A DNA stretch of 53,965 nt, taken from positions 1 to 53,965 of IMG/VR virus record IMGVR_UViG_3300025669_001165; one strand, 5' to 3'. Shown here piece after piece: positions 16,329 to 38,056 of this stretch (position 1 is its first letter; every line of letters begins with the position of its first letter). The translations under genes were made by a program, and so were the position numbers. Under the pieces are notes generated by a model that was given only the letters and a program-made list of their open reading frames with translations, searched no databases and was not told the origin of the DNA. Origin of the DNA: a virus.

Positions 16329-16972
16329 TCGTCCCTCCCTGTAGGTACTACTATCCATCTATCTGTTTCGTACTGCATTCCTTTATCATCTGCAGGACGT
16401 TCCTTTATATCGTTGTTGATATTGTAGTACAACGCATTGTTGTACAACTGTCTCTTCATAGTATGTTCATGAAACATAGCATACTGCTCGGGTACTTTCA
16501 ATCCCCTCTTACCTCTATCAAAAGTAAAACCCTCATGTACCTTACCTTCCCAATGACCTCCTGTTCTGTGAAGAACTCTCCATTGAAAATCCTTTCCTAC
16601 TACTTGTCCATCGAACTTTGATATACGATGAATATGATAACCAAAACAATCTTTTGCATCAGCAATCAAAGTAGGTAACAAACCAAAGAACTCTTCTGAG
16701 AACCATTCATCAGCATCACAAAAGAGTATCCAAGGAGTCTTACATAACGTCATTGCATAGTTCCTTTGATGAGCGAAGTCATAAGCGAATGGATGAATGT
16801 CTACTCTACACCCTAACTCTTTACATATCTCTACAGTCTTATCTGTACTCCCTCCATCAACTACAATAACTTCTGCAACGTTAGGCATAAGATTCTCTAC
16901 TGCTTTCGATATGTACTTCTCTTCATTCTGTGCCATAATGATAGCACTAATTGGTATGTCTTTCTTATCCAT
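16325..16972 (-). CDS. Glycosyltransferase, family GT2-like
   Basis: A 215-residue GT-A enzyme: I-S-A-I-I-M-A-Q-N-E-E-K-Y-I at the N-terminus, E-V-I-V-V-D-G-G-S-T-D-K-T, and the metal-binding D-A-D-E-W-F motif. This is the WaaE/KdtX-like branch. The start at 16972 is favoured by GGAGGTTGGA. Substrates are unknown. Confidence 0.85.
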   Translation of the reverse strand: MDKKDIPISAIIMAQNEEKYISKAVENLMPNVAEVIVVDGGSTDKTVEICKELGCRVDIHPFAYDFAHQRNYAMTLCKTPWILFCDADEWFSEEFFGLLPTLIADAKDCFGYHIHRISKFDGQVVGKDFQWRVLHRTGGHWEGKVHEGFTFDRGKRGLKVPEQYAMFHEHTMKRQLYNNALYYNINNDIKERPADDKGMQYETDRWIVVPTGRDE

Positions 16973-17672
16973 TCCAACCTCCATATCCTAATATCTTTCC
17001 GTCACTGGAAAGTTTCATCTCGTGGTGTTCGAATAACTCTCTCATTACATTACCTAATGACTCCTCTGTGAAAGTATAGATATGTTCTGCGTTTTCACTT
17101 ATCTCCCTATGAGGAACAAACCCACAAACTACCTTCCCTACTCTACTTTGTTCTTTCAATGCTTCGTAGACTGAAGGGAGATGTTCTAAGACATGTTGAC
17201 AATACACAGTATCGAATTCCTTATCGGCATATGTCATATGCAAGGCGTCACCATGGTCGAACCTTACTCCAGTAATATCAAACTTACAAGTTAACATTCT
17301 AGCATACCCTACTAGCATCATTGAAGCATCCATTCCTACTACCATATCAAAAGCTTTTCTCTTAGCCATTGAGATATCCATATACCCTACATTACTACCT
17401 ACGTTAAGGAACTTCTGTCTTCCTTTCTTATACCAAAACGTTTCTTCTATCCATTTATAGATTTCTCCATCATGGTCTGTGTTACTACTGGGTTCTGTAA
17501 AGACATTCTCTCCCATCTTTGTCCAATCATCTCCGTACAATCCTTTATTGTAAGTCATTACTGATTCTAAGTAACCATACCCATTCAGTTCCAACCAGTT
17601 AAGATATTCTTTTTCTGATTTGATACCATTAGGTAAGTGGTAACTCGTTTTTGATATTCCCCGTAACGTCAT
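16965..17672 (-). CDS. SAM-dependent methyltransferase
   Basis: A 235-residue class I methyltransferase with F-L-N-V-G-S-N-V-G-Y (motif I, SAM loop), a V-V-G-M-D-A-S acidic end of strand 2, G-D-A-L-H-M and F-D-T-V-Y-C-Q-H-V-L-E-H-L (motif IV and after). The type is that of small-molecule or sugar methylases, not DNA methylases (no D/N-PP-Y). The start with GGAGGAATTAG overlaps the preceding gene by 44 bases. Confidence 0.82.
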   Translation of the reverse strand: MTLRGISKTSYHLPNGIKSEKEYLNWLELNGYGYLESVMTYNKGLYGDDWTKMGENVFTEPSSNTDHDGEIYKWIEETFWYKKGRQKFLNVGSNVGYMDISMAKRKAFDMVVGMDASMMLVGYARMLTCKFDITGVRFDHGDALHMTYADKEFDTVYCQHVLEHLPSVYEALKEQSRVGKVVCGFVPHREISENAEHIYTFTEESLGNVMRELFEHHEMKLSSDGKILGYGGWNG

Positions 17673-18342
17673 CTAATTCCTCCCATATCTTTACTGTCTC
17701 TTTCAAATGTTCTACACTCTTAGTACCAAAGACGATTACATCTGGATTGAGAACTCTTAATGCTTCTAAGCATCCTGTTACTGTATACTTAGGGAAACAT
17801 AACCCATCATTGAAAGGCTTGATTGCAAATACAGTACCTCTCTCTTTTAACTTTGCTACATCCTCTACTGTAAACCTACCTTCAATGTGTAGTGGAACCA
17901 TAAACAAGTTACAATCGGGAAACTCTTCTGCAAAGCGATGTGCTAACCTAGGCTCTTCAGTTGTGATACCTAAGTGTAATGAAGGAAAAACTTGCTTAAT
18001 AGCTTGATACATTGCCTTTCCTTTTGAGTACAACTCTTCATTATCCAAGTCTGATACCCATAGTATGTGAACTGTACCTAACAGTCTTACGCTTTTCTCA
18101 AACAATGGTTGCCATTCTGTAAACTGATAAGCAGATACTTTAGTCATCTTTATACAACCATTGAACTTACCTACTATCTCTTCTGCATTACCATATCTGT
18201 GGTGACAGTCAAAGATATTTATACCTTCTCTGATGGCGGCATCTACTAAAAGCATACCATCATCAATAGACATATCTACCATCTTTCCACCACCTAAACA
18301 TAGTTCAGATACTTCCCAACCATCAATCTTTATCTTCTTCAT
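17629..18342 (-). CDS. Aldo/keto reductase-like protein
   Basis: A 237-residue protein, shorter than typical aldo/keto reductases (about 280-320). It keeps the L-C-L-G-G-G start, F-D-C-H-H-R-Y-G-N-A-E-E (Asp and Tyr of the catalytic set), M-T-K-V (Lys), and an F-G-T-K-S-V-E-H-L NADPH-loop region near the end. The position of the usual catalytic His appears as W-V-S-D-L-D, so the fourth residue may be missing. It likely acts on a sugar intermediate; reductase activity is uncertain. Confidence 0.7.
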   Translation of the reverse strand: MKKIKIDGWEVSELCLGGGKMVDMSIDDGMLLVDAAIREGINIFDCHHRYGNAEEIVGKFNGCIKMTKVSAYQFTEWQPLFEKSVRLLGTVHILWVSDLDNEELYSKGKAMYQAIKQVFPSLHLGITTEEPRLAHRFAEEFPDCNLFMVPLHIEGRFTVEDVAKLKERGTVFAIKPFNDGLCFPKYTVTGCLEALRVLNPDVIVFGTKSVEHLKETVKIWEELDDVTGNIKNELPLT

Positions 18343-19558
18343 CTCTACTCCTTATCTGTGGGGCTACTGATATCCTTCCAGCCCATTCTGTTAACTGTTC
18401 TACGCTTCCTGAAGATGTTAATACAAAATCATTGCAACCTTCTAACCAATAGTCATCAGCTATAATACCTTCCTTCTTGCAAATCTCATACAAAACAGTT
18501 CCGGGATACAAGTAGGTTAACCCTACAGCGGGGAGTTCTGCCATAGTAAGCGTTTCCATAAACTCAACTGTCTCTTGTATAGTCTCTTCTGTCTCTCCTG
18601 GAAGACCTACCATCATGAATGCAAAGGTATCAATACCTACCTCATAGCATAATTCAAAACACTTCTGAATCTGTTCTTTGGTTATCCTCTTACCTAGAGT
18701 TTGCATAATAGAATCTGAACCAGTCTCTACTCCAAACCTCATTTCAGTACACCCTGCTTGCTTCATAAGTAGTAACATATCCTTTGATACTGGATGTACT
18801 CTAGCATTGCATTGCCAGGTGATATTCAAATTCCTATCTAATATCTCTTGACTTAGACTTGTTGCTCTTCCTATCGTAAAATTGAAAGTATCATCATGGA
18901 ATAGAAAATCTGATATACCGAACTCTTCCATCAAGTACTCTATCTCATCAACTACTAACTTAGCGCTTCTGAACCTTACCCTACCTCCCCAGAAAGCTCT
19001 TGAAGAACAAAAGATACAGTTACCTGGGCATCCTCTTGATGTAATCAAATGTGCTGTACCATTTTCTTCTATCCATTCCCTAGCATATGAATGGTCTGCA
19101 ATAGGTAATGAATCCATATCTACTAACCTTGAACCTACTCTTATCTTCTCTTTATTATCTAACGTTTCAAGTAGTTCTACAATTGCTATCTCTCCTTCAC
19201 CCCTGATGATGTAATCTATAGGAAAGTTATCCAGCAGTTGGTCGCACATTATAGTAGCGTGTACTCCTCCCAATACTACTACTGTGTCCTTGTTGTAATT
19301 CTTTACCATCTCTATTCCTTTATATGTACCGCATCTGTTTTGTGTAATGCAATTAAAACCTACTACGTCAGGGTTAAATCTTTCCAACACTTCTACTAAT
19401 GACTTCTCTGCTTCATCTGCTTTCATATTGAAGAAGCTAAGCATCTCTACTTCATGCCCTTCTTCCTCTATCACCGTACCCAAGAAACCTAAACTCAGCG
19501 GGTAACAGTGATGAGGGTTAGGTACCTGAGCATTCATACTACTCAGAAGTACTTTCAT
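18323..19558 (-). CDS. B12-binding radical SAM enzyme
   Basis: A 411-residue protein. Residues 1 to about 140 form a cobalamin-binding-like Rossmann domain (P-L-S-L-G-F-L-G, V-V-G-F-N-C-I, V-V-V-L-G-G-V-H-A-T). Then comes the radical SAM core with S-R-G-C-P-G-N-C-I-F-C (C-x3-C-x2-C, 4Fe-4S), a G-V-E-T-G-S-D-S motif and M-V-G-L-P-G-E-T. Such enzymes methylate or rearrange unactivated carbons. The ATG at 19558 lies within the last codons of the upstream gene; a GTG 45 bases earlier is less likely. Confidence 0.88.
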   Translation of the reverse strand: MKVLLSSMNAQVPNPHHCYPLSLGFLGTVIEEEGHEVEMLSFFNMKADEAEKSLVEVLERFNPDVVGFNCITQNRCGTYKGIEMVKNYNKDTVVVLGGVHATIMCDQLLDNFPIDYIIRGEGEIAIVELLETLDNKEKIRVGSRLVDMDSLPIADHSYAREWIEENGTAHLITSRGCPGNCIFCSSRAFWGGRVRFRSAKLVVDEIEYLMEEFGISDFLFHDDTFNFTIGRATSLSQEILDRNLNITWQCNARVHPVSKDMLLLMKQAGCTEMRFGVETGSDSIMQTLGKRITKEQIQKCFELCYEVGIDTFAFMMVGLPGETEETIQETVEFMETLTMAELPAVGLTYLYPGTVLYEICKKEGIIADDYWLEGCNDFVLTSSGSVEQLTEWAGRISVAPQIRSRDEEDKD

Positions 19559-20486
19559 ACTTGGGCCACCAGTCGGGTGCAATGAAGCTTTCCATGTAGT
19601 CACAATCTTTACAAAAGGGCAAGTTCTCTTGCTTCATAGCAAGATGCAATTGTCTAACAGTTTCGAACTTCTTACCTTGCCATATCTCTTTGACGCTTTC
19701 TGTATTGGAATCTCCTACAACTAACTTCGCTAGAACATCCTGACAACATACTACGGCTTGACCGTCCGAACAGATGCTCAAGTCTAAAAAAACTCTCCAG
19801 CAAGGGTTCTTCATATGCCCTCCTATGTACTGTCCTCCGAGTCTCATCTTCTTTGAATCTATCAATCCACCTATGTTGTTGACTCCACTTCCTCCTACAT
19901 CATCTATCCCCAATCCTTGAAACAGTTTATAGTATTCTGGAAGCGAGCGTTCATTTGTCTTACAAGGAATGAATGCAGTCTGTGTAGGAATGTTACTACC
20001 TAGTTCCTTTCTTATCTCCATAAAGGCAGCTATGTTACCTACTACTGTCTCCCACTTCAATCCCTTTCTCATAGCTTCAAACGCTTCCTTGTTGCCTCCA
20101 TCTACACTAAAGACTATCTTATCTATCTTTGATTCCAACAACTTCCGAGATACATCTCTGTTCATAAGGGAAGCATTCGTAAAGAAACATATGATAGGTG
20201 TACCAGGTAGGTTCTCTTTTGCATAATTGATTCTATATACAAATTCTCCTATTGGTAGATGTAAGGGCTCACCATTGAGATGCAGATGAAAATAATCCAA
20301 TCTCCATCCAGCTTCCTTAATCTCATCTACTATCTTGATGTATAAACTTTCCTTCATGTCTCCGTTTCTCTCCATTCCTTCTCTGGGACAAGTAATACAT
20401 CCTCCATTGCACCAAGAACTACTCTCTACATGTATTTCCTTAGGTGCCGTAAAACTACTAGCTACAAAGTCTTTCAAGTTCTCCAT
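19539..20486 (-). CDS. Radical SAM/SPASM-domain enzyme
   Basis: A 315-residue protein: S-W-C-N-G-G-C-I-T-C-P-R near the N-terminus (C-x3-C-x2-C cluster), an S-V-D-G-G segment, and a C-terminal SPASM region with C-W-R-V-F, A-V-V-C-C-Q-D, a V-K-E-I-W-Q-G-K-K spacer and C-K-D-C for auxiliary iron-sulfur clusters. SPASM enzymes modify peptides, sugars or cofactors. AACAGGAGGAACA gives the start. First gene of the block ending at 15201. Confidence 0.85.
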   Translation of the reverse strand: MENLKDFVASSFTAPKEIHVESSSWCNGGCITCPREGMERNGDMKESLYIKIVDEIKEAGWRLDYFHLHLNGEPLHLPIGEFVYRINYAKENLPGTPIICFFTNASLMNRDVSRKLLESKIDKIVFSVDGGNKEAFEAMRKGLKWETVVGNIAAFMEIRKELGSNIPTQTAFIPCKTNERSLPEYYKLFQGLGIDDVGGSGVNNIGGLIDSKKMRLGGQYIGGHMKNPCWRVFLDLSICSDGQAVVCCQDVLAKLVVGDSNTESVKEIWQGKKFETVRQLHLAMKQENLPFCKDCDYMESFIAPDWWPKYESTSE

Positions 20487-26642: not shown

Positions 26643-26961
26643 TCACCTCCTCTCGTGTGCTTTAGTATTGTGGCACAAGTAACACAATACTTGTAGGTTC
26701 TCTTTTCTATTGTTTCTGGGGTTGCCGTCCTTGTGGTGAATAGCTAATCTCTTCTCCTTGGTACCACACATTTCACAATGCGTCTTCTTAACTACTCTTT
26801 CAGACCACCCTCGGGATACTCCACCCTTCCAATTCCAATGCTTCTCGCCAATATGGCCAATCTTCCGTAGAGAAGCGAGAGCCCAATCTACTATTGGGTC
26901 CTCCAGGAAGTGCTAACTCCCTCATCTTTTGTTTAAACACTTCGGTCACTGCCATCATCAT
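26643..26961 (-). pseudogene. HNH homing endonuclease, frameshifted
   Basis: In the frame ending at 26643 there is an open stretch back to a TAG at 26913. It encodes I-G-H-I-G-E-K-H-W-N-W-K-G-G, then H-C-E-M-C-G, A-I-H-H-K-D-G-N-P-R-N-N and L-C-Y-L-C-H-N, a full HNH domain. There is no start codon in that stretch. A start with GGGAGGATGATG exists at 26955-26961 in a neighbouring frame (MMMAVTEVFKQKMRELA), and a one-base shift near 26905 would join them. Either a decayed gene, a sequencing error or a frameshift. Confidence 0.55.
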
Positions 26962-27322
26962 CCTCCCAGGGGAAAATAATCCATTCGTTAATAGTTCTGA
27001 CACAAAAGTCTGGTTCCACTTCTGTACCATCCTTCCTATATAGAGTAGCAATTCTTCTCTTACCATCCTTGAACGCCTTCAAAGTCTTACCAGTGTCCGA
27101 TACATCATCCACAACTATAAGATACTCCGAAGAGCAATACAAATTCCCAGCTACTGGAGCACCCAAGTGATAAGATAATCCTGCAGCAATATACAACCCT
27201 CCACGAGGAATAGGAAAGAGAGAATGATTTGTGATATCTTTTACATCATTCAGTTTATCCGCCAGTTCCTTTACATCCTTCAAATACTGCTCCCACGTAA
27301 TTATGTGTTTAGACTGTTTCAT
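26933..27322 (-). CDS. Phosphoribosyltransferase
   Basis: A 129-residue type I phosphoribosyltransferase: F-P-I-P-R-G-G-L-Y-I-A strand/loop and the PRPP-binding motif Y-L-I-V-V-D-D-V-S-D-T-G-K-T. It is short, like xanthine/guanine or orphan PRTases. The start at 27322 has AGGAGAGTT; longer frames upstream cover the HNH gene. Next to the preQ0 genes, it may act on purine or 7-deazapurine bases, but no residue proves the substrate. Confidence 0.78.
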   Translation of the reverse strand: MKQSKHIITWEQYLKDVKELADKLNDVKDITNHSLFPIPRGGLYIAAGLSYHLGAPVAGNLYCSSEYLIVVDDVSDTGKTLKAFKDGKRRIATLYRKDGTEVEPDFCVRTINEWIIFPWEDDDGSDRSV

Positions 27323-27752
27323 AACTCTCCTCGTGGCACTTAAAGGTATTCTCACAAAAACGACACTTATCCCTATGTATACTATCATGACATATAGTAC
27401 ACACAGCAGCAAAATTACCTTTGTTATTATTCTCCCTATTCCAATCTTTATGATGAACATATCTAGTTTTTCTCTTTTTACACACCTCACAAGTAGGGTG
27501 TGCTTCTCTATACTCCGTAATCTTTCTAGCCATGCCATCCTTATAGAAGGGGTGTTCCTCCCCTCTCCTAACATTCTTCTTTATCTTTTCTTTAACGTCT
27601 TCTCTTCTAGCTGGATTTTTATCTCCAGAAATATCTTCTCTCACTAGTCCTTTCAGAGGATTTACGTAACCTTTCTTATACTTCTTTTTCCAAGAAACGC
27701 TTAATTTCTTTCGAGTCTCCTCTGAATGTTTGTGTCCCTTAAAATAGCCCAT
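27309..27752 (-). CDS. HNH homing endonuclease with NUMOD3-like motif
   Basis: A 147-residue protein: G-H-K-H-S-E-E-T-R-K-K-L-S (NUMOD3-type DNA-binding motif) near the N-terminus, then C-E-V-C, V-H-H-K-D-W-N-R-E-N-N-N, C-T-I-C-H and C-R-F-C. Free-standing homing endonuclease inserted between queC and the phosphoribosyltransferase; its end overlaps the PRTase start. Confidence 0.85.
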   Translation of the reverse strand: MGYFKGHKHSEETRKKLSVSWKKKYKKGYVNPLKGLVREDISGDKNPARREDVKEKIKKNVRRGEEHPFYKDGMARKITEYREAHPTCEVCKKRKTRYVHHKDWNRENNNKGNFAAVCTICHDSIHRDKCRFCENTFKCHEESYETV

Positions 27753-28420
27753 TACACCTCCTCGTAGATAAGGGGGTCAGTCATATCTGCTTTACCAAAC
27801 GCTTCTAGTCTCTCTCTACAGCTACCACATACCCCACATGCCTTCTCTTCTCCCTTGTAACACGTCCAAGTAAGCTGATAGGGAACCTTTAATGCTTTAC
27901 CCATGCACGCTATGTCTCCTTTGTCAAGTCCAACAAACGGAGCAAGTATCTGTAATTCCTTGATATCATTACCGCTAAGTACTATGTTGATATCCTCTAA
28001 AAAGTCCTGACGGCAGTCCCAATAGATTGCATGGTCACCACTATGGGCTCCATAGTAGATATGCTCTACGTACTTCAGAGTCTCTGCTAAGGCTGCTGCA
28101 AGACTAAGCATTATCATATTGCGATTAGGTACTACTGTTGCCTTCATGCTCTCTTCATCGTAGTTACCCTCTGGAACTGCTATACCCTCATCTGTCAAAG
28201 CACTTCCTCCAAAGGAAGGAAACTGTACGATATGGTGTGTTGCAGAGTCCCCACTGTAATACTTTACTAGTTCCTTCGCACATTCAATCTCTTTACTATG
28301 TCTCTGCCCATAGTCAAATGTTACACAGTGTACGAACTTCCCTTCTTCTACTAGCTTACCTAGTAGTGTGGCACTATCCATTCCGCCACTCAATACCAAT
28401 AATACTTCTTCAGGTCCCAT
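27752..28420 (-). CDS. queC: 7-cyano-7-deazaguanine synthase
   Basis: A 222-residue PP-loop ATPase: V-L-L-V-L-S-G-G-M-D-S-A-T (ATP loop), F-D-Y-G-Q-R-H and the zinc site C-Y...C-G-V-C-G-S-C. Converts 7-carboxy-7-deazaguanine to preQ0 with ATP and ammonia. No glutamine amidotransferase (Gat) domain is attached, unlike the Gat-QueC of some archaeosine-making phages. The start at 28420 has AAAGGAGTGTGAT. Confidence 0.92.
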   Translation of the reverse strand: MGPEEVLLVLSGGMDSATLLGKLVEEGKFVHCVTFDYGQRHSKEIECAKELVKYYSGDSATHHIVQFPSFGGSALTDEGIAVPEGNYDEESMKATVVPNRNMIMLSLAAALAETLKYVEHIYYGAHSGDHAIYWDCRQDFLEDINIVLSGNDIKELQILAPFVGLDKGDIACMGKALKVPYQLTWTCYKGEEKACGVCGSCRERLEAFGKADMTDPLIYEEV

Positions 28421-28421
28421 A

Positions 28422-29024
28422 TCACACTCCTTTTTTTGTACCCCAAACATCTACATGAAGTCTAGGGGAATATCTTAGTTTTTTTCTCCAACAATAATTC
28501 CAAACCTTCTTCTTTATCATCAGGTCCTTCTTTGGATTACCAGTAGTCAAAGGCATCAGCATAGTTGCATATGGTAACATATCTGCTCCTACTGTTTCGA
28601 AGTCTGTAACTACCTTTATATCCCAAGTGGCTATTCCTTCCTTCTGCATTGCGAATACTCTTCTGGCGGTTATCAACTCCTTGGGACTTATGGAGATATG
28701 GTCAAACATCTGAAAGTCTTCTTCCATTAACAAATCTCCATTCGTCTCTATATGTACATCTGTAGTGAACACTTCCATCATATACTCTTCTACTGCTGCT
28801 CTCTGTACCAAAGGTTCTCCTCCAGTTAAGCATACGTATCCAGCATCCTGAACGAGATTGTTGAACTTACTCTTACTCAAGTACGTACCACTCGTATGGT
28901 AAGAAGTATCGCACCAAGGACAATCTCTATTACATCCTGACAGACGTATGAACTGCATAGGGACTCCTGCGAACCTTCCCTCTCCTTGTATACCTACGAA
29001 TTCCTCGTTAACTCTTAGCTTCAT
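28422..29024 (-). CDS. queE: 7-carboxy-7-deazaguanine synthase
   Basis: A 200-residue radical SAM enzyme: G-I-Q-G-E-G-R-F-A-G, then C-N-R-D-C-P-W-C-D (C-x3-C-x2-C) and L-T-G-G-E-P-L. Converts 6-carboxy-tetrahydropterin to CDG. The start at 29024 has AAGGATGGCAAG and overlaps the queD stop (ATGA). Confidence 0.92.
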   Translation of the reverse strand: MKLRVNEEFVGIQGEGRFAGVPMQFIRLSGCNRDCPWCDTSYHTSGTYLSKSKFNNLVQDAGYVCLTGGEPLVQRAAVEEYMMEVFTTDVHIETNGDLLMEEDFQMFDHISISPKELITARRVFAMQKEGIATWDIKVVTDFETVGADMLPYATMLMPLTTGNPKKDLMIKKKVWNYCWRKKLRYSPRLHVDVWGTKKGV

Positions 29025-29419
29025 CTTGCCATCCTTGCATAACTTGTTGGGGTCTCCCAAAGAGTAAGCGAGTGGAGAGAACACTTCAGTTCCAAAACCT
29101 TCGGTTCAAGAATCTCCCAAAAGGCTCTTACCATATTCTCCGCGGTACAGATACAGCCTCCAAATATCTCTACATCATTCAAAAACTGATGGTCTACCTT
29201 ATCTATGATTTGCGCATTAACAAGTTCCTTCAGGTCTACGAAGTTCATCAGCATCCCGTCATCTGTACTAACTCCACCACCTATTTCAACCCTTAACTTG
29301 TAGGTGTGCCCGTGTATGTCATTGCACTTCCCAAACATCTGTCTATTCCACGCCTCTCCGTGTTCGTGATTGAGCAACTTATGTGCGGAATCAAATACGA
29401 AATCCTTACCAATTATCAT
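29021..29419 (-). CDS. queD: 6-carboxy-5,6,7,8-tetrahydropterin synthase
   Basis: A 132-residue T-fold enzyme: F-D-S-A-H-K-L, C-N-D-I-H-G-H-T-Y (zinc histidines and catalytic Cys), V-D-H-Q-F-L-N-D and W-E-T-P-T-S-Y. Converts dihydroneopterin triphosphate to CPH4. Its start overlaps the primase-helicase stop (TAATG) after AAAGGAGGGTTC. Confidence 0.92.
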   Translation of the reverse strand: MIIGKDFVFDSAHKLLNHEHGEAWNRQMFGKCNDIHGHTYKLRVEIGGGVSTDDGMLMNFVDLKELVNAQIIDKVDHQFLNDVEIFGGCICTAENMVRAFWEILEPKVLELKCSLHSLTLWETPTSYARMAR

Positions 29420-31734
29420 TAGAACCCTCCTTTGTTGTTATCCCCTACCCTATCATATGCTACTCTTTCCTGCTCATTACACTCTTCCACTCTTGCTAAA
29501 GAAGGGTAGAATTTGTAGTAGGTTCTTCCTTTAAACTCTGACAGTTTATTCTTCCTCGCCCACAAACCAATCACGGGCAAGACTATTCCTTCATCTGTTA
29601 CATGGTACAATTTAGTCTTCGTACTATCCTCTAACATCGTATGTTCGTTATGCAAACAGAAGACTGCATCTGCATCATAAGTTAAATCAATAGTCTCTTT
29701 GATGTCTTCTTCTGTAGGCCAAGTTAACCTATCCTGCATCTTTCTTATCTCTGCTGTTGCAACTAAAGGTACATCGTATGTATTGATTATCCTCTTCAGT
29801 CCTTCACTAATGTGAGTGAACTTATCTCTCGTTTCCTTTCCTCCAGTCTCTGTAGTCATCTTATGTAGGTTGTCGATGAAGACCACCAACTGCTTATCCT
29901 TTGCGATAGTCTTATACATTCGTATAACCTTCTCCATGTACTCAAGTGACCTACCCTCTCCTACATCTTTCACTACCCACTGGTTGGATAACCATCGTAG
30001 ATGATGTACTGCTTCATCTCTTTTCTGTTCTAACATCGCACTTTGCTCGGTTGTGATAGCATCATTGTTTCGTATCTTATGTATGGGATTCGATAAAACG
30101 TTTATCTCTATCCCTGAATGGCTGGCTAATATCCTCGGTAGCACCTTGTTCGTATTGTCATCAATACTAAAGTACAGCACGAATACCTTATCTGGGTTGT
30201 GCATTATAACGTTGTGTGCCATCTCTAAACAGAACGTAGACTTACCTATGTTTGACCTTCCTGCTACCAAATACAAAGCGTTCTGTAGTCCTTCCATCTT
30301 TGCTGTGAGTGTAGGCCAACCCATATGTAACCCTAGTAGTTCTCCTCTACTCCAAGACCATTCCTCGAATGTGTTTATGGCTGACTCCATCTTCTCCATC
30401 TCTCCTAACACATCCTCTAACAATACCCCCTTAGTCGCCTCCCCATCAAACCCATGTAACTCTTGTGTGATAGCACTCTCACTAAGATTCATCGTCTCCG
30501 ACATCCTCCTAATGAGCCTCTCTTGCGCAATCGCACTTTCCTCATTAGCGATTACATTCAGACATTCATCCTTGTAGATATCTTCATCTGGACTGTCTGC
30601 GTACTTCTCCAATTGGTATTCAAAGATGGTCTGTTCTGGTAACGCTAAGAACTTATCTTTCCCGTGCTTCTGTATGTACTCATCTGGGTCTTTAGTATCG
30701 GATAACTTCTTCACAAACACTTCTAGGTCTGTCTTCTCAGTAACCAGGGTGTGTAGTATCTTATCCAAACTTGTAAACGCTCCTGCTTCGTTATCCAAAC
30801 AGAAGACTATTTGATGTATCCCGCATTTCAATAATGCTGCGTATTGTGCTGGAGTGAAGTTCTTACCACACAGGGCTACTACATTCTTTATTCCTGCAAG
30901 GTGTAACGTAAATGCATCAGCATATCCTTCTACCAGGTACAACTTATGTCCTTCTGCTCTTGCCTTGTCTAGGTTGAACAGTATGCTTCCTTTCGTGTAC
31001 ACTGAAGAGTTTCCAAAGTTCAAATAGCGTATAGCATTCTTCTGTCCTCTGTAGTCTCTAGATGCAAAGCCTACCACTCTACCGAAGTGATTCTTTATAG
31101 GAAACACTAATCTATCATCAAATAGGAACTTTTGAAAGCCTTTCTTCTTTTGGTCCTCTCCTGCTAAAAGCCCTGCTCGTATCATTACCTCGTTTGTAAA
31201 CTTCTGTCCCCGTAGTTTGTTTATCAATTTGTCGTAACTGCACCAACCAAAGCCAAACTCATCAACGAGATGTTCCCAACCTCTCTTCTTAATGTAAGTT
31301 TTGATATCCTTAGTGACAGGGTTCTCTGCCTTCATAGTGTTGCATAGCAACTGTGCTGCGTATTCCAACACCTTATGTATCTCTGTCTTATCTTCCTCTG
31401 GTCCCTCGTTACCTACTTCTGTTTCGTACTCTATGTTATACTTGTCAGCCAGATACGCTACATTCTCCGTAATGAACTCAATACCATGCGTGGGTCTTCC
31501 CTCTATAAGCGAAACCGCTTTGAATATGTCTCCTGCTGAACTGCAAGAGAAACAATGAAAGTGTTCCTCATCTGGATAGAAACTACAACTGGGTGTTTCA
31601 TCTTCATTACTGTGTGCTTGGGAGTTGGGACACTGAAAGTGTGTACCACTTAAGTCCCTACCTTGTTCTTCTAAGTAAGTGAAGAGCATAGGTCGTATCT
31701 GAGACATGACTGTCTCAAGATTCTTTATCCTCAT
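29419..31734 (-). CDS. DNA primase-helicase
   Basis: A 771-residue T7 gp4-like fusion. N-terminal CHC2-type zinc domain (C-P-N-S...F-H-C-F-S-C); TOPRIM primase core with Y-L-V-E-G-Y-A-D-A and V-F-C-L-D-N-E-A-G; a DnaB/RecA-type helicase with V-A-G-R-S-N-I-G-K-S-T (Walker A) and V-V-F-I-D-N-L-H-K (Walker B). Synthesises primers and unwinds the fork. The start at 31734 with GGAGGATT is chosen over longer frames inside the polymerase gene. Confidence 0.92.
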   Translation of the reverse strand: MRIKNLETVMSQIRPMLFTYLEEQGRDLSGTHFQCPNSQAHSNEDETPSCSFYPDEEHFHCFSCSSAGDIFKAVSLIEGRPTHGIEFITENVAYLADKYNIEYETEVGNEGPEEDKTEIHKVLEYAAQLLCNTMKAENPVTKDIKTYIKKRGWEHLVDEFGFGWCSYDKLINKLRGQKFTNEVMIRAGLLAGEDQKKKGFQKFLFDDRLVFPIKNHFGRVVGFASRDYRGQKNAIRYLNFGNSSVYTKGSILFNLDKARAEGHKLYLVEGYADAFTLHLAGIKNVVALCGKNFTPAQYAALLKCGIHQIVFCLDNEAGAFTSLDKILHTLVTEKTDLEVFVKKLSDTKDPDEYIQKHGKDKFLALPEQTIFEYQLEKYADSPDEDIYKDECLNVIANEESAIAQERLIRRMSETMNLSESAITQELHGFDGEATKGVLLEDVLGEMEKMESAINTFEEWSWSRGELLGLHMGWPTLTAKMEGLQNALYLVAGRSNIGKSTFCLEMAHNVIMHNPDKVFVLYFSIDDNTNKVLPRILASHSGIEINVLSNPIHKIRNNDAITTEQSAMLEQKRDEAVHHLRWLSNQWVVKDVGEGRSLEYMEKVIRMYKTIAKDKQLVVFIDNLHKMTTETGGKETRDKFTHISEGLKRIINTYDVPLVATAEIRKMQDRLTWPTEEDIKETIDLTYDADAVFCLHNEHTMLEDSTKTKLYHVTDEGIVLPVIGLWARKNKLSEFKGRTYYKFYPSLARVEECNEQERVAYDRVGDNNKGGF

Positions 31735-34270
31735 AATCCTCCATCTCTGACCACCTTTTACCATAAGATATATCAATCCGCATCGGAATGTTCATCCCTG
31801 CGATTGGCCGTTCCATTTCCTCGTATAATATTTTCACGAATCTTTTTAACTCTTCATCTGGAGTCTCCCACAAACCAGCATCATGTATATCCATTAAAGT
31901 AGAAGTCTTCAGTTTCTCTTCCTTTAACCGTACCCCTACTCTTATCATAACGATTGCTAAACAATCATGTGCGAACCCTTGAATAGGAGAGTTCACTGCC
32001 TGAGCTAAAGCATGAGATTCAATTTCCGTAGAGGAGTGAAACATAAGTTGTCCTGCCTCCCCAGTAAAAGAAGTTGCTACTCCCATTGCTACTGGTATGC
32101 GTCTCTTACGACCAAAGTAGTTTACTACGTACCCATTATCAACAGCAAACTTCTTCGTCTCATCCAACCACCTCTCTCCTACTGGAAACTTATCCAGAAA
32201 ATGCCTAATTGTTTTCGTCGCTGCAAGTACAGGTATATCATATTCTTCTGCTACGCTCTTAGGTCCCCTTCCATACATGACTCCAAATACTGTCATCTTA
32301 GCTACAAACCTATCCCACTTCGTAACCTCCTCCTCTGGTTTCTTAAATAGGAAAGCTCCCATCTCTGCGTGAATGTCTTTACCAGATTTGATATACGCAA
32401 TCATATCGGGACACTGAGACATCTGTGCCCAACATCTAAACTCTGCTTGTTTAAAGTCGGCCTCTATTAACCAACTGCCTTCTGCTGCAACGAAGTAACT
32501 CCGAATGTCTTGCGCCTCTTCTCCTCTCTTTGGTTGGTTTTGAAGATTAGGGTTCGCAGAAGATAGTCTACCTGTTTCTGTACCATGTTGTTTATAAGTA
32601 GTATGTAACCTACCGTCTGCATGTATCAGCTCTGGTACGTTCTTCAAATAGGTACCATAAAACTTAGACAGAGTACCAGTACGTTGTAAATACTTCGCTC
32701 CTTCGTGTTTGGTAGAAAGGCTTTCCAAAGCATCCTTATTAGTACTCCTATCTGAATAGGGGTCTCCATATAGCAACGCTCTTTTGTGTTGTACGCTATT
32801 GGGATTGAATACTACTGGGGGTACTTCCTTGGGTGTCTTCCTTACCTCATCGCTCTTCTTCTGGGCGAGAGTAGTCATCAGTTTTTCTACTACCTTAACG
32901 CTAGGGAGTTCCTGCAACCCCACAGAAAGCTTTTCCAGTTCAGTTCCGTACTTCTCTATTAACTTCTGGAGTATGGATTGGTCTATCCTCACGCCTCTCA
33001 TCTCCATCTTCTGAAGCAGTTTGTTGTAGGGCATTACTATCTTACTGAACAGTACCCACAGACCTTCATCTATCAACCTCTGTTTGAATATGTTGTACAG
33101 TCTTATGGTAGCATCAACATCCATTCCTGCGTATTGCCAAAGTACCTCCTCGGGAATAACCGCATAGGACGTCTTTGAGTTCAATAAATACTTTTTCAGT
33201 CCCTTATCATACTGACCCATATCAGTATATTCCATTGCTAAACTCTTCAAGTCGTGTGCACCAGTTTCCTGTAACAGATGATGAGCGAGCATCGTATCGA
33301 ACTTAAAATCTACCATCTGTACATTCGCTTGCATAAGAAACTTGTTATCAAACTTACCATTCTGAGCAATCATTGTCTTACCGTACGGCTCATTGAACAT
33401 ATCTCTCAGCATCCTACAGATGAACCCAAAGTCACTCTTATCCCAGAAGGGTTCTAACTTACCATCTGTCATGTAATTCTTATTGCTATGGTAGAATGGA
33501 ATAATTGCTCCTGTTCTCTCTTTCCAAGAGAACGCAAGACACAGTACCTTATCTACACCACTCCACCCAAAACCCGACGTTTCAATATCATAAGATACCT
33601 CTTTCTCTCCTTCTATATGTTTGAACAACGTCTGAACCTTATCCAAATCAGTACAGGGTACATACTTGCAAGGTTCTGGTTTGCCTATTCCTTTACCCTC
33701 CAATGCCTGATATACTGCTTCCCACCCCTTACGAAACAAATCGTTAGCTCTGTCTCCCTGGTTCCTCAAAACATATGACGGATGAACGATTGGTATACAA
33801 ACAGCATCATATTGTTCATTCCAGAAGGGCTTTCCCGTAAGACGAATGATACCTTTGGAAAACCCCAACACCGTGTTCATAGCGACGGCCCCCAGTAGAA
33901 CTATAATCTTTGGCTTCACTTCTTCTATTTCCAAGTACAACTTGGTTTTGCATACAGCCACCTCCTTTTTAGTCGGCGCTCTATTCCCTGGGGGTCGACA
34001 CTTTACAACATTCGTAATATACATATTCTCTCTAACTAAACCCTGCATCTTAAGAAAATGGTTCATTAACTGACCTTGTTTTCCTACGAGGGGTTCCTGC
34101 TTGACTACTTCTTCGCCTCCGAGTGCTTCTCCTATTACCATTATCGAGGCATCCTTAGGTCCTACTCCCATCAATCCAGCAGTTCTACATACTAGACCTG
34201 AGTAACCGTAAGTGCTACCTTCCCATAACTTGCACTCTTTACAATTAACGACATCACAATCAAACTGCAT
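31715..34270 (-). CDS. Uracil-DNA glycosylase-family 4 domain fused to family A DNA polymerase
   Basis: An 851-residue protein. Residues 1 to about 190: 4Fe-4S-type UDG with C-K-E-C, G-E-A-L-G-G-E-E, N-V-V-K-C-R-P-P-G-N-R and H-P-S-Y-V-L-R-N. Then a 3'-5' exonuclease starting V-S-Y-D-I-E-T, and a PolA domain with motif A A-D-F-K-Q-A-E-F-R, motif B K-M-T-V-F-G-V-M-Y-G-R and motif C M-D-I-H-D-A-G. The usual HDE of motif C is HDA; the key Asp is kept. Replicative polymerase; a similar UDG-Pol arrangement is known in SPO1-like phages. Confidence 0.92.
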   Translation of the reverse strand: MQFDCDVVNCKECKLWEGSTYGYSGLVCRTAGLMGVGPKDASIMVIGEALGGEEVVKQEPLVGKQGQLMNHFLKMQGLVRENMYITNVVKCRPPGNRAPTKKEVAVCKTKLYLEIEEVKPKIIVLLGAVAMNTVLGFSKGIIRLTGKPFWNEQYDAVCIPIVHPSYVLRNQGDRANDLFRKGWEAVYQALEGKGIGKPEPCKYVPCTDLDKVQTLFKHIEGEKEVSYDIETSGFGWSGVDKVLCLAFSWKERTGAIIPFYHSNKNYMTDGKLEPFWDKSDFGFICRMLRDMFNEPYGKTMIAQNGKFDNKFLMQANVQMVDFKFDTMLAHHLLQETGAHDLKSLAMEYTDMGQYDKGLKKYLLNSKTSYAVIPEEVLWQYAGMDVDATIRLYNIFKQRLIDEGLWVLFSKIVMPYNKLLQKMEMRGVRIDQSILQKLIEKYGTELEKLSVGLQELPSVKVVEKLMTTLAQKKSDEVRKTPKEVPPVVFNPNSVQHKRALLYGDPYSDRSTNKDALESLSTKHEGAKYLQRTGTLSKFYGTYLKNVPELIHADGRLHTTYKQHGTETGRLSSANPNLQNQPKRGEEAQDIRSYFVAAEGSWLIEADFKQAEFRCWAQMSQCPDMIAYIKSGKDIHAEMGAFLFKKPEEEVTKWDRFVAKMTVFGVMYGRGPKSVAEEYDIPVLAATKTIRHFLDKFPVGERWLDETKKFAVDNGYVVNYFGRKRRIPVAMGVATSFTGEAGQLMFHSSTEIESHALAQAVNSPIQGFAHDCLAIVMIRVGVRLKEEKLKTSTLMDIHDAGLWETPDEELKRFVKILYEEMERPIAGMNIPMRIDISYGKRWSEMEDYEDKES

Positions 34271-35036
34271 TCTTGTCCCTTTTGTATAATTCGTTGTAGG
34301 TTTTACCGTTTAGGTATCTCCAATGATAGGTTTCAAAGCCTAACTTGATTCCTGTATCCTTGTACTTCTCTTTCATATACTCTCTACACTCTCTCCAATC
34401 ATCTTTACTGATGACTCTAAACTTGTTCGTCTTCCATAACTCTTCGTAGAACTGGCTACCTCTCATTGGTACATATGTGAGTGCTACTATCTCCTGCACG
34501 TAAGTCTTCCTCTCGTACAACCAATCGACCGTATGAAAGAAATCCTGGTTACCTGTAGTGAATGGTAACCCCGACATTATGTATACGAGATTGTTAACTC
34601 CCTTCTTAAACGACTGCTCTAAAACTTCTTCCATCTGGGCAACTACGATACCTTTCCCTAACCAACTCAGTATCTCATCGTCTGCTATCTCAAAGCCCCA
34701 ACTGATAGTGAGGTCGAATAGTTCTACTACTCTGGATACCTCATCCCAGTCTACCTTGTCTATCCTGTTCTCTACTCTCAGAGCAGTTACTCCATTGTCA
34801 CTTAGATAGTCATAAACGAAGTTTCTTATCTCTGGTGTTAAGTCATCATCGCTGAACCAACTACCACCATTGAATATCTTAAAGTATCTTCCTTCCTTCT
34901 TACACTTCACCAATTCCTCATCTAACATATCCTTCAAGTCTTCCCTAGTGGGCATAGCAAACTTCTGCATTTGATTGTAACCGCAGAACTTACACTTCCC
35001 CCAACTACAGGGTCCTATGTTTAAGTAAACAGACAC
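34260..35036 (-). CDS. Radical SAM protein resembling archaeosine enzyme RaSEA
   Basis: A 258-residue protein with a GTG start after AAAGGAGGAAGT, coupled to the ArcS-like gene. The cluster motif is G-P-C-S-W-G-K-C-K-F-C-G-Y (C10, C15, C18; C-x4-C-x2-C), followed by a G-G-S-W-F segment and a radical SAM barrel with S-W-G-F-E-I and M-S-G-L-P-F. The G-C-x-W...C-x-x-C-G-Y form is that of the archaeal RaSEA/Elp3-type group, which finishes archaeosine by cleaving a lysine adduct. It could be another Elp3-like enzyme; substrate here is inferred from neighbours. Confidence 0.72.
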   Translation of the reverse strand: MSVYLNIGPCSWGKCKFCGYNQMQKFAMPTREDLKDMLDEELVKCKKEGRYFKIFNGGSWFSDDDLTPEIRNFVYDYLSDNGVTALRVENRIDKVDWDEVSRVVELFDLTISWGFEIADDEILSWLGKGIVVAQMEEVLEQSFKKGVNNLVYIMSGLPFTTGNQDFFHTVDWLYERKTYVQEIVALTYVPMRGSQFYEELWKTNKFRVISKDDWRECREYMKEKYKDTGIKLGFETYHWRYLNGKTYNELYKRDKNAV

Positions 35037-35818
35037 ACTTCCTCCTTTGCTTTCCTAAGCTCTTCTAGGAACATCTCCTTTGTACGTTTAAGGCCCAGCA
35101 TCCTAAACTTTAACAGACCTGTGCTACCTTTAAACCTATCTATATATTCGTCATTTATTTTTCGTATATTTTCGTCGGTAAAAACAGTGAACTTCTTCTG
35201 TTCGATAGGGCAATCGATAAGTGCATCGTAAGTTTCCCCCGGTCTAACCATGTTCACTATCGCTTTGTATTTGAACTGAGTAAACCATCTGTATATCCTA
35301 GCGCGGGTAACTGCTGTGTACTTCGCCTTTATCTCTTCTGTCTCTTCTGTTTCGTTCCATTCGTAATACCTATATGGGTAGTGCCCATCGTAATCTATTG
35401 GTATCACTCCTGGATTGGATAGTATGAAGAAGTCTACTCCCTCTTTCTGACATATGGTATAGTACTGTTTGATATACTGCTGTGTTCGGTAGGGCTTCTT
35501 ATTGGCACATAACATTACCACAGCAATGTTTGACTTGGGTTTGAAGTTCTCCTCTAAGTGTTTCCTCATAGTTGTATATGAGAAATGCTCGAGTTGCTTA
35601 CTTGTTGCTCCTACGAGCCCATCTAAGTCCCACTGGTCTCTTGGAATTACTTCATCTTCTTCTGATAGGAATGGAGCGAGTTTATCTTTGCCCCACTTGG
35701 TTATGTCTTCTCTATTCTGTTCACTATGGAGTTTCTTATATTCGGGTCCCCAACTTTGTCTCCAAGCAATAATGTTCTTCGCAACCTTGTAATACAAATC
35801 TTCGTTCGTAATCACCAC
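35021..35818 (-). CDS. ArcS-core (DUF5591)-like protein
   Basis: A 265-residue protein. Residues 99-110 read A-V-V-M-L-C-A-N-K-K-P-Y, matching the C-x3-KPY signature of the archaeosine synthase ArcS core, which joins lysine to preQ0; the Ser and His that follow in archaeal ArcS are Gln and Ile here. F-F-I-L-S-N-P-G-V-I-P and Y-P-Y-R-Y-Y-E-W follow. It lacks the PUA and TGT-like parts of full archaeal ArcS. GTG start after AAGGAGGCT. Between the DpdA-like and radical SAM genes it probably modifies preQ0 placed in DNA. Confidence 0.7.
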   Translation of the reverse strand: MVITNEDLYYKVAKNIIAWRQSWGPEYKKLHSEQNREDITKWGKDKLAPFLSEEDEVIPRDQWDLDGLVGATSKQLEHFSYTTMRKHLEENFKPKSNIAVVMLCANKKPYRTQQYIKQYYTICQKEGVDFFILSNPGVIPIDYDGHYPYRYYEWNETEETEEIKAKYTAVTRARIYRWFTQFKYKAIVNMVRPGETYDALIDCPIEQKKFTVFTDENIRKINDEYIDRFKGSTGLLKFRMLGLKRTKEMFLEELRKAKEEVCLFT

Positions 35819-35825
35819 AGCCTCC

Positions 35826-36593
35826 TTATTTTACCATTTGCATAGTAACTAAAATATTTTGTAGGGCTTGTTGAAACACCTCCTTATCGTAGCCACCATC
35901 GAAGTCCAGTAGACCATCTACCTTATCCGCACATCCTTCAACTGTAAAAGCTATGTCGTTCATAGCGTACTTCACCTGCTTGGTAGTATCGTTACTACGT
36001 ATCCAAGAATACTTCTTCTGGAAGAACAATTCAAGTACGTTACCCAGTCCTAGCAGATGATGTTCCTTCTGCGGGTCCATTTTGTCTAGTAGATTTGTTA
36101 GATACACTCGGTTCGGCATCACCCCAGGCAGATTAGTCTCACTCTTAAAGCACTTTTCTACTACCCTGAACGCTAAACCTATAACATCTACTTCTGACCA
36201 TCTACATAACTCTTCATAACACTCCATATACTCTTGATAAGTACTACCTTGGGGAACCGCCTGAATCTTTAAACCTCTTGCACCATCAGAACGAGACAGT
36301 ATATCTAGTGCTGCCATAGAATCTTGTAGCGTTTTCTTCATATCGAACTTATGGTCGGGCAATACTATTTCATCGCACTCTAACCTTATTGCTTCTTCTA
36401 TTACCTGCCCGAATGGTAATGAAGAACCTAACTCATGTGCACTGTTATCCATTATCTTATACTTCTTCGTTCCTTTGAAGAAAGCGCTGTACTCAGCATC
36501 TAACTGAGACACGTGTGGAAGCAGAAGATAGAAGTCCTGCATATCATGTAGTGCTTCACAATACGACTCTGGACATATGAAAGATAGTTTCAT
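35826..36593 (-). CDS. dpdA: DpdA-like DNA guanine transglycosylase
   Basis: A 255-residue TIM-barrel protein of the phage TGT-like group: K-I-M-D-N-S-A-H-E (Asp49), E-I-V-L-P-D (Asp80), A-V-P-Q-G-S-T, I-G-L-A-F-R, L-L-G-L-G-N and I-R-S-N-D-T-T (Asp202, the likely nucleophile region). DpdA swaps guanine in DNA for a 7-deazaguanine base. The length and D-N-S-x-x-E pattern suggest a phage DpdA (DpdA2-like) rather than tRNA TGT; the zinc-binding cysteines of tRNA TGTs are absent. The start overlaps the previous stop (ATGA). Confidence 0.8.
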   Translation of the reverse strand: MKLSFICPESYCEALHDMQDFYLLLPHVSQLDAEYSAFFKGTKKYKIMDNSAHELGSSLPFGQVIEEAIRLECDEIVLPDHKFDMKKTLQDSMAALDILSRSDGARGLKIQAVPQGSTYQEYMECYEELCRWSEVDVIGLAFRVVEKCFKSETNLPGVMPNRVYLTNLLDKMDPQKEHHLLGLGNVLELFFQKKYSWIRSNDTTKQVKYAMNDIAFTVEGCADKVDGLLDFDGGYDKEVFQQALQNILVTMQMVK

Positions 36594-36907
36594 TCGAACA
36601 GCTCCTTTTCTTTAAGTGCTTCCTCTTTAAGGTCTTCGTACTTCTGTTCCAACTTCGCTACCTCTTGGTATTGAAAAAAAGCATAGCACGCTACATCTCT
36701 TAACTCTGACCTCATCTCGAAGAAAAGGTCACTATCCTTATGCTGTTCCTCTCCATACACTTTCGCGCCTAACTTGAATCCCTCTACCATATCACTTATG
36801 AACTTTGATAATGTGGTAGGGTCTACGTCCCTTGGTAGAGATAAAAACTCTGCCAGTGTTCCTTTGTACTCTTCCTTTGGTGCTTCTTTCTTTTCTTCAT
36901 CAGCCAT
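36590..36907 (-). CDS. Hypothetical 105-residue helical protein in the deazaguanine operon
   Basis: Acidic N-terminus (E-E-K-K-E-A-P-K-E-E), then helices with K-L-G-A-K-V-Y-G and M-R-S-E-L-R-D-V-A-C-Y-A-F-F-Q-Y. Such E-x-x-D-x-x-x-Y helices recall small MazG-like or DUF proteins, but the match is weak. It sits between folE and dpdA with 2-base and overlapping junctions, so a role in modification is possible. Confidence 0.6.
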   Translation of the reverse strand: MADEEKKEAPKEEYKGTLAEFLSLPRDVDPTTLSKFISDMVEGFKLGAKVYGEEQHKDSDLFFEMRSELRDVACYAFFQYQEVAKLEQKYEDLKEEALKEKELFE

Positions 36908-36909
36908 TG

Positions 36910-37743
36910 TTACCTCCTTATTAAGGTTAAGAACTCTTCTCTTGCTTGCTTGGTAGGGTCTAAAAACACTCCCCTCATTGCGGAGGTTGTCATAACACTA
37001 CTTTGTTTTCGTACTCCTCTAATAGCAGTACACATATGCTGCGCTTCGATTACAACTCCTAGTCCTTTCGGCTTGAGATGCTTTTCTATCGCGTCTGCTA
37101 TCTGTCTCGTCATCCTTTCTTGTATCTGAGGTCTCCTAGCATAAATGTCTACCACCCTAGCAAGTTTGGATACTCCTACCACCCTTCCACCATCTTCTGG
37201 AATGTAAGCCACATGCGCTTTACCCAAGAAGGGAAGAAAATGATGCGAACACATGGATTGGAATTCTATATCCTTTAGAATCACCATCTCGTTATAACCG
37301 TCAGAGGGAAACGAAGTACCTAGTACATCGTCTGCATTTTCATCCAACCCCGCGAACAACTCTATCCAAGCTCGTGCAATCCTATGTGGGGTACCTTGAA
37401 GATTTTCATCTTCCAAATCAAGCCCCCGGAACTTCTTAGAGAGCCCTCTTAACATTAGAGCAGCGCCGGTAGCTATTTCATTGACCCCCCAATTCTCTCT
37501 CTTCCAGGTTCCTAACTCGTTGTGAAGCTTCTGATGGCACTTACGACACAATATTTCCACATCCTCTTCCTTATTGAACGCAGTATTAGTAGAAACCCCA
37601 TAGGGAATATGTACCCCATTGAGGTGATGTCTTTCTATATTATCTGTGCTCCCACAGCGACTACAGCACTCATTTGGTAGTATCCCTGAGGCCTCTTTAG
37701 CCCAATCTAGCGTATCCCCCTTGGTTTTCTTGCTCTTTTCCAT
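36910..37743 (-). CDS. folE: HNH-type zinc domain fused to GTP cyclohydrolase I
   Basis: A 277-residue protein (start AAGGAGGGGATACATG). Residues 24-76: [24 protein letters not shown], an HNH-nuclease-like zinc fold. Residues about 88-277: GTP cyclohydrolase I with Q-S-M-C-S-H-H (C165, H168), V-S-K-L-A-R-V-V-D and H-M-C-T-A-I-R-G-V (C238). The usual CEHH is CSHH. GCH I turns GTP to dihydroneopterin triphosphate, the first step of preQ0 synthesis. I know no such fusion. Confidence 0.88.
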
Positions 37744-37759
37744 GTATCCCCTCCTTGTT

Positions 37760-38056
37760 TTAGTCGAATAAATCATTATCCTGTATAACCACCCCAGAGC
37801 TGGAAGCAAGGGGCTGCGTCCTCACTTCCGTGGACTCGACAGGGTGTCTCGTCCGCTCTAATGACTCTGGGATAGTATTTTTCTTTCCGTACACCACCAG
37901 GATATCATTTTTCTGTAGGTTTAATTTTGTCATTGATACGAGAGCGCTAGCGTTGTCATAAGTAGCAGCAGGGAACACTTCCATTATCTTCTCTGCTATT
38001 GCTTTATGCACCAATCCCGCTCTGAATCCTTCTTTCGCTACTTCTGTCTTGTTCAT
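37760..38056 (-). CDS. Hypothetical 98-residue protein
   Basis: A helical first half ([13 protein letters not shown]) and a Ser/Thr-rich, probably disordered tail ending D-N-D-L-F-D, which could bind a partner protein. It lies between the replication protein and folE. Not recognised. Confidence 0.6.

Follow-up and report, generated by a model that had tools for sequence, protein, structure and literature searches.

An ArcS-type and RaSEA-like gene pair beside dpdA in a phage genome: a predicted lysine-dependent route to 2'-deoxyarchaeosine in DNA

Introduction

In archaea, ArcS and RaSEA are transfer RNA (tRNA) enzymes (PMC11298593). The ArcS of Thermococcus kodakarensis is active only in complex with RaSEA and lysinates 7-cyano-7-deazaguanine (preQ0) in RNA, in a nucleotide or in a nucleoside, while the free base is not accepted; once the lysine is attached, the transglycosylase can no longer reverse its exchange (PMC11298593). 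In phage DNA, 2'-deoxyarchaeosine (dG+) is established for Enterobacteria phage 9g, and traces of it (about 0.02% of G) occur in Vibrio phage nt-1, which has an ArcS homologue with a DUF5591 domain as well as DpdA2 and QueC (PMC6884629). The known source of phage dG+ is the route through QueC fused to a glutamine amidotransferase (Gat), and the role of phage ArcS was left open in 2019 as 'less clear', with RaSEA unmentioned (Hutinet et al. 2019; PMC6884629). In this work, the IMG/VR virus record IMGVR_UViG_3300025669_001165, a tailed phage of bacterial appearance whose 53,965 nucleotides (nt) form the window analysed, was found to carry a DUF5591 gene of the ArcS type and a RaSEA-like radical S-adenosylmethionine (SAM) gene next to a dpdA-like gene. 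We propose, with a probability of roughly 70%, that the DNA of this phage obtains dG+ by the action of DpdA, followed by lysine addition and radical cleavage.

The locus shares with the archaeal pathway, such as that of T. kodakarensis, the DUF5591 domain and a radical SAM protein of the RaSEA family, and with them the predicted addition of lysine to the preQ0 nitrile and the subsequent radical cleavage. It differs in that its ArcS consists of DUF5591 only, its RaSEA is shorter, DpdA stands in place of the archaeal tRNA-guanine transglycosylase (arcTGT), and DNA is the predicted target. Phage nt-1 also has a DUF5591 protein within a DpdA/que cluster, and this protein is the most similar viral fold. 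On the other hand, no RaSEA was found in the whole nt-1 genome, its transglycosylase belongs to the DpdA2 subfamily, and a small separate protein starting with MCG follows its QueC. The predicted final base would be the same as in 9g, whereas the nitrogen in 9g comes through the glutamine amidotransferase fused to QueC; here the Gat domain is absent and lysine is the predicted donor. Queuine lyase (QueL, 6p78) is a related radical SAM enzyme, which cleaves a C-N bond in the side chain of a 7-deazaguanine and salvages free queuine. To our knowledge, QueL has no DUF5591 partner.

The gene pair

The DUF5591 gene (35021..35818, minus strand) encodes 265 amino acids (aa) and a predicted lysine transferase on preQ0, whose C104/K108/P109/Y110 motif lies in C-A-N-K-K-P-Y (C-x3-KPY, residues 104-110). 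The RaSEA-like gene (34260..35036, minus strand) encodes a putative preQ0-lysine adduct lyase of 258 aa, and its C-x4-C-x2-C cluster motif is part of G-P-C-S-W-G-K-C-K-F-C-G-Y at residues 8-20. The two genes overlap by 16 nt (35021..35036, minus strand). The overlap contains the GTG start of the RaSEA-like gene at 35036, with AAAGGAGG four bases 5' of the GTG, and the Shine-Dalgarno site (gcAAAGGAGGaagt before GTG) sits within the upstream DUF5591 gene, which ends at 35021. Only a 7-nt gap separates the stop of the dpdA-like gene from the start of the DUF5591 gene, and 11 nt at the end of the RaSEA-like gene are shared with the start of the polymerase gene; the genes thus form a tightly packed run. 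A second IMG/VR contig (IMGVR_UViG_3300035698_005145) agrees at 99.99% identity over 20.8 kb including the pair locus, which argues against an assembly chimera.

A preliminary description of the window had named both genes and motifs, an overlapping stop and start, a neighbouring dpdA and a QueC without a Gat domain, and all of these were recovered. Its central proposal, that an ArcS-like and a RaSEA-like protein act after DpdA, gains support from profile, fold, gene-order and gene-fusion evidence.

The ArcS-type DUF5591 protein

The DUF5591 protein matched PF17884 above the gathering score (1.4e-9, 38.4 bits against 26), and its best NCBIfam match was ArcS NF040592 (2.8e-5). These values, together with the TIGR01210 match of the RaSEA-like protein given below, place both assignments well beyond chance. 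In the alignment with the archaeal fusions, described below, the C-x3-KPY motif was invariant, and C104, K108, P109, Y110, S134, G137, P140, P148, Y152, W154 and E159 were all kept. The AlphaFold model has a confident core, with a predicted local distance difference test (pLDDT) value of at least 90 for 102 residues. Its sole significant fold match in the PDB was AF0587 (2q07; E 6.6e-6, probability 1.00, TM-score only 0.38), which is also a relative by sequence, and its top viral fold match was the DUF5591 protein of nt-1 (2e-10). In the tree it grouped with other phage DUF5591 proteins, with a support of only 87/91. The ArcS identity first suggested therefore stands for the DUF5591 domain and has to be corrected in one respect, as this is a minimal ArcS that lacks both the PUA and the TGT-like region present in the full-length enzyme. 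We regard the protein as an ArcS catalytic-type domain with a predicted lysine transfer to preQ0, in which Cys104 is possibly the nucleophile that attacks the preQ0 nitrile to give a thioimidate, by analogy with QueF.

The RaSEA-like radical SAM protein

The best NCBIfam match of the second protein was RaSEA itself (TIGR01210, 1.1e-16 over residues 3-207, 61 bits), while the runner-up, TIGR01212, reached 1.2e-8 and Radical_SAM PF04055 remained slightly under its cut-off (1.3e-6). The columns C9, W11, G12, C14, C17, G18, Y19, G57, S58, E88, G113, E115, K127 and Y151 (numbered without the start residue) were invariant, and the alignment with the archaeal fusions showed that the protein has retained every cluster cysteine as well as the RaSEA positions CGY, GS and E. 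By sequence, the protein probably belongs to the RaSEA family, and cleavage of preQ0-lysine to archaeosine (G+) is its predicted reaction.

In the tree, it grouped with one deltaproteobacterial protein with a support of 58/62. Neither this support nor the 87/91 of the DUF5591 protein points to a named donor of the pair genes. The closest relative by score comes from a deltaproteobacterial metagenome-assembled genome (MAG) with two RaSEA-like genes, L011:4186-4971 (minus) and L070:598-1404 (plus), the second of which is broken by a stop. They lie beside a conserved gene of 162 aa, and that genome has no DUF5591.

RaSEA-DUF5591 fusions in archaea

The strongest single support for reading the two proteins as an ArcS-domain and RaSEA-like pair comes from a natural fusion. 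The cluster motif was used to scan 84,980 species genomes, which brought up many archaeal relatives. Among these, 18 open reading frames (ORFs) of about 380-550 aa proved to join both parts in a single protein: the RaSEA-like protein matches their first ~240 residues and the DUF5591 protein the rest. Against the ORFs of the retrieved loci, E-values went down to 1e-26 for the RaSEA-like part and 1e-18 for the DUF5591 part, and the phage RaSEA-like protein aligned with the RaSEA part over nearly its whole length. The fusions (for example L037:1644-2948 (-), L042:2983-4299 (+) and L043:4522-5838 (+)) come from MAGs of DPANN, Altiarchaeota, Nanohaloarchaea, Aenigmatarchaeota and related archaea. 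Like the phage DUF5591 protein, they have no room for TGT-like and PUA domains. They thus contain the same two parts as the phage pair, but in one polypeptide with RaSEA first, whereas in the phage they are separate, overlapping genes whose order is reversed. Since the two parts of the fusion match the two phage proteins, the phage carries the archaeal two-domain unit split in two.

Thirteen of the 15 genomes with a fusion had no further DUF5591 match, and the other two had three extra matches, two of them inside a TGT ORF. Exactly one TGT match was present in 13/15, and none was found in the remaining two, perhaps because of MAG incompleteness. With mostly one TGT and no separate ArcS, the fusion looks like the whole archaeosine synthase of these archaea, so that a DUF5591-only ArcS joined to RaSEA appears to be their sole enzyme for this step. 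No description of such fusions in DPANN or Altiarchaeota was found in the literature searched. They would offer a natural minimal ArcS-RaSEA for structural work.

DpdA and the supply of preQ0

The gene upstream of the pair (35826..36593, minus strand) encodes a DpdA-type DNA-guanine transglycosylase of 255 aa. It had no Pfam match. In phages of Flavobacterium, Weizmannia, Cellulophaga and Bacillus, its relatives lie within que operons, the homologue in Flavobacterium phage immuto is annotated as DpdA, and most of the 79 IMG/VR loci with relatives have QueE, QueC, FolE or QueF adjoining. The AlphaFold model (pLDDT 93) had only TGTs as its 13 best PDB matches, and D49 and D202, which were invariant in 31 sequences, are candidates for the catalytic aspartate pair of TGTs. 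Its action on DNA would follow from its family.

Genes for the synthesis of preQ0 are encoded on the minus strand of the same window. FolE (GTP cyclohydrolase I, 36910..37809) matched PF01227 at residues 129-297 (2.2e-64). QueD, QueE and QueC lie within 8 kb: the QueD-like 6-carboxytetrahydropterin synthase (29021..29419; PF01242 6.6e-34, with TIGR03367 at 6.2e-23 just below cut-off), the QueE-like radical SAM 7-carboxy-7-deazaguanine synthase (28422..29084; phrog_2076 3.3e-35, with TIGR03963 at 1.9e-18 below cut-off) and the preQ0 synthase QueC (27752..28450; PF06508 5e-61 over residues 16-220 of 232, TIGR00364 above cut-off). QueC has no Gat domain, since its 232 aa match QueC-type domains only in Pfam, NCBIfam and PHROG. 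The window, examined by single-sequence search rather than by Pfam for each ORF, showed neither Gat nor QueF relatives, with the Gat-like proteins of L148 and nt-1 among the sequences compared.

Between folE and dpdA there is a protein of unknown function of 105 aa (36590..36907, minus strand) that had no Pfam, NCBIfam or PHROG match. The polymerase gene (31715..34270, minus strand), which belongs to the operon context and not to the pathway, encodes a DNA polymerase A with a fused N-terminal uracil-DNA glycosylase domain, according to Pfam. The FolE ORF has an HNH-like N-terminal extension (residues ~46-99; HNH 0.001, below cut-off), and a later start codon is possible. A phosphoribosyltransferase gene (26933-27574) adjoins QueC, and such genes recur in other que loci (L114:2840-3235 and, by eye, L207:6903-7400); perhaps they salvage the guanine released by DpdA.

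Occurrence among viruses

The RaSEA-like protein had no match in INPHARED (50,697 phages; tblastn, E 0.01), where DUF5591 was confined to nt-1 and a relative of it, CZ01. In IMG/VR, the RaSEA-like protein used as a single sequence and as a profile returned only the contig of this phage, as did a TIGR01210 search of 43 DpdA-bearing virus records. IMG/VR matches to the motifs CSWGxCxxCGY and CxWGxCxxCGY outside this contig were rejected as chance, as they fell in structural or out-of-frame ORFs. Plasmids gave weak radical SAM matches at most and no DUF5591. Exact motifs, the choice of seeds and the fragmentary nature of records set limits to these searches, and other phages with RaSEA may exist. 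No paper on RaSEA in phages was found within a literature coverage that was partial by licence. The suggestion that the combination may be undescribed thus holds for the RaSEA partner and the full pair, which appear new in phage 7-deazaguanine DNA modification, and not for the DUF5591 gene, which had already been reported in nt-1 (PMC6884629). In the viral records searched, RaSEA, and with it the lysine and radical route, was found in no other phage.

Two other phage lineages with DUF5591 were seen in IMG/VR (L148:4386-6936 with L156/L205/L206, and L207:9995-12633 with L208). In both, DUF5591 is followed by a class-III pyridoxal phosphate (PLP) aminotransferase and a third conserved protein of ~200 aa (PHP-like by eye, no Pfam match), with FolE2-like, QueE and polymerase A genes nearby; no RaSEA was found in the L148/L156 records. 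These lineages possibly make a different lysine- or amine-derived DNA base. In nt-1, the protein of 202 aa after QueC (L002:9534-10142), which starts with MCG, looks like a stand-alone class-II amidotransferase without a Pfam match, and similar proteins follow QueC in L157, L164, L181, L186 and L196. The nt-1 protein could explain the dG+ traces of that phage.

Predicted route to dG+ and alternative explanations

We hypothesize that FolE, QueD, QueE and QueC of the phage make preQ0, and that DpdA would exchange selected guanines of phage DNA for it. The DUF5591 protein, as a minimal ArcS, would then add L-lysine through its side-chain amine to the preQ0 nitrile in DNA, and the RaSEA-like protein, in complex with the DUF5591 protein, would cut the lysine C-N bond and leave an amidine, so that the final base in phage DNA would be dG+. 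The order of DpdA insertion, lysine addition in DNA and radical cleavage is likely because of the properties of the T. kodakarensis ArcS (PMC11298593), which agree with a step that follows DpdA on nearly any nucleic acid. With such relaxed substrate needs, it is plausible that the enzyme passed from tRNA to DNA. The loss of the TGT-like and PUA regions, taken as tRNA-related, would fit a DNA target. The families, the folds of DpdA and of the ArcS domain, the operon structure, the intact signature residues and the archaeal fusion of both proteins were computed here; we infer in which order the steps occur, that DNA is the substrate and dG+ the product, and that the modification serves to protect from restriction.

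Several observations weigh against this route. The RaSEA-like protein scores below the equivalog cut-off of TIGR01210 (61 against 212.15 bits), and the DUF5591 protein below those of full-length ArcS (22.9 against 440 bits for NF040592, 18.1 against 600 for NF053620), where the matches cover only ~110 residues. Pfam gave no TGT or PUA match in the 265 aa, so that the TGT-like N-terminal and PUA C-terminal regions are missing, and the first ~65 residues are poorly modelled. Both proteins are divergent, with end branches of 2.5-3.0 changes per column. Queuine lyase shows that relatives of RaSEA carry out other reactions on 7-deazaguanines, and other phage DUF5591 proteins have different partners, so the product need not be dG+. 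The family assignment is well supported, whereas the chemistry of the pair on DNA is predicted. One obvious objection, the shortness of the phage ArcS, is answered by the archaea in which a DUF5591-only ArcS fused to RaSEA appears to be the whole synthase.

An unlikely alternative, though the least unlikely of those considered, is that the base formed in DNA is not plain dG+ but a 7-deazaguanine that is lysine-linked or hypermodified in some other way. DUF5591 would attach an amine, be it lysine or a different one, and the radical SAM enzyme would rearrange the adduct or cut it elsewhere, in the manner of queuine lyase and not of RaSEA. This alternative was kept because phage DUF5591 is coupled to different enzymes, as in the two lineages where a PLP aminotransferase and a third conserved protein take the place of RaSEA, and it agrees with a RaSEA-like protein that falls below the RaSEA cut-off and whose nearest solved sequence is queuine lyase 6p78. 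However, the E-value of TIGR01210 is some eight orders of magnitude better than that of any other radical SAM family, and the near end-to-end alignment is with the RaSEA part of fusions that themselves bear DUF5591.

It is quite improbable that the virus infects an archaeon and that the pair represents archaeal genes in an archaeal virus. In its favour, DUF5591 was found in archaea and was absent from all of the ~600 bacterial genomes searched, that is 0/398 in the phylum holding Lutispora (a second draw of 398 gave largely the same genomes) and 0/198 in a second bacterial phylum. Nevertheless, the relatives of the portal, the terminase, the family A polymerase and DpdA are all in bacterial phages, with the portal and terminase nearest to Bacillota phages, and a bacterial host is likely. 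Strong Shine-Dalgarno sites precede many genes of the phage. Supply of DUF5591 by the host was rejected as far as these two bacterial phyla were searched. Besides QueE and the RaSEA-like gene, two further radical SAM genes at 18323-20486 bring the total in this phage to four, which suggests an anaerobic host.

We consider it very improbable that the pair modifies host or phage tRNA, with archaeosine at position 15 or a related site, and not DNA. ArcS and RaSEA do act on tRNA in archaea (PMC11298593), but no arcTGT-type gene was seen, the window contains no tRNA genes, the adjoining transglycosylase is of the phage DpdA family, and a bacterial host would offer no preQ0-tRNA unless DpdA acted on tRNA. 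Equally remote is a decayed or inactive pair with plain preQ0 deoxynucleoside (dPreQ0) in the DNA, as in phages Rosebush and CAjan; despite the high divergence and the example of nt-1, which has an ArcS-like gene yet mainly dPreQ0 (PMC6884629), both ORFs are intact with starts and Shine-Dalgarno sites, the cluster cysteines and near-invariant residues are kept, and the same is seen in the second contig.

With both members of the archaeal pair present and neither Gat nor QueF found, a lysine and radical route on DNA becomes directly testable. If the proposed route to dG+ is true, it would place a radical SAM step on a phage DNA base, show archaeal tRNA enzymes adapted to DNA, and provide a set of three genes (dpdA and the pair) to transfer into Escherichia coli. 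A wider view, for which the odds are somewhat less than even, is that the archaeal tRNA archaeosine pair was retargeted to DNA, with a radical SAM lyase acting on lysine-adducted 7-deazaguanine in polymeric DNA to give dG+ without a glutamine amidotransferase, and that DUF5591 serves as an exchangeable preQ0-activating module with varied downstream enzymes (RaSEA here, the PLP enzyme and the third conserved protein in two lineages), which might yield several lysine-derived DNA bases.

Elsewhere in the window, glycosyltransferases of the GT4 type and GT2, a SAM methyltransferase, an unknown protein, a B12-binding radical SAM gene and a radical SAM-SPASM gene stand in a run (15201-20486) and give this phage a second, unusual set of genes of the modification type.

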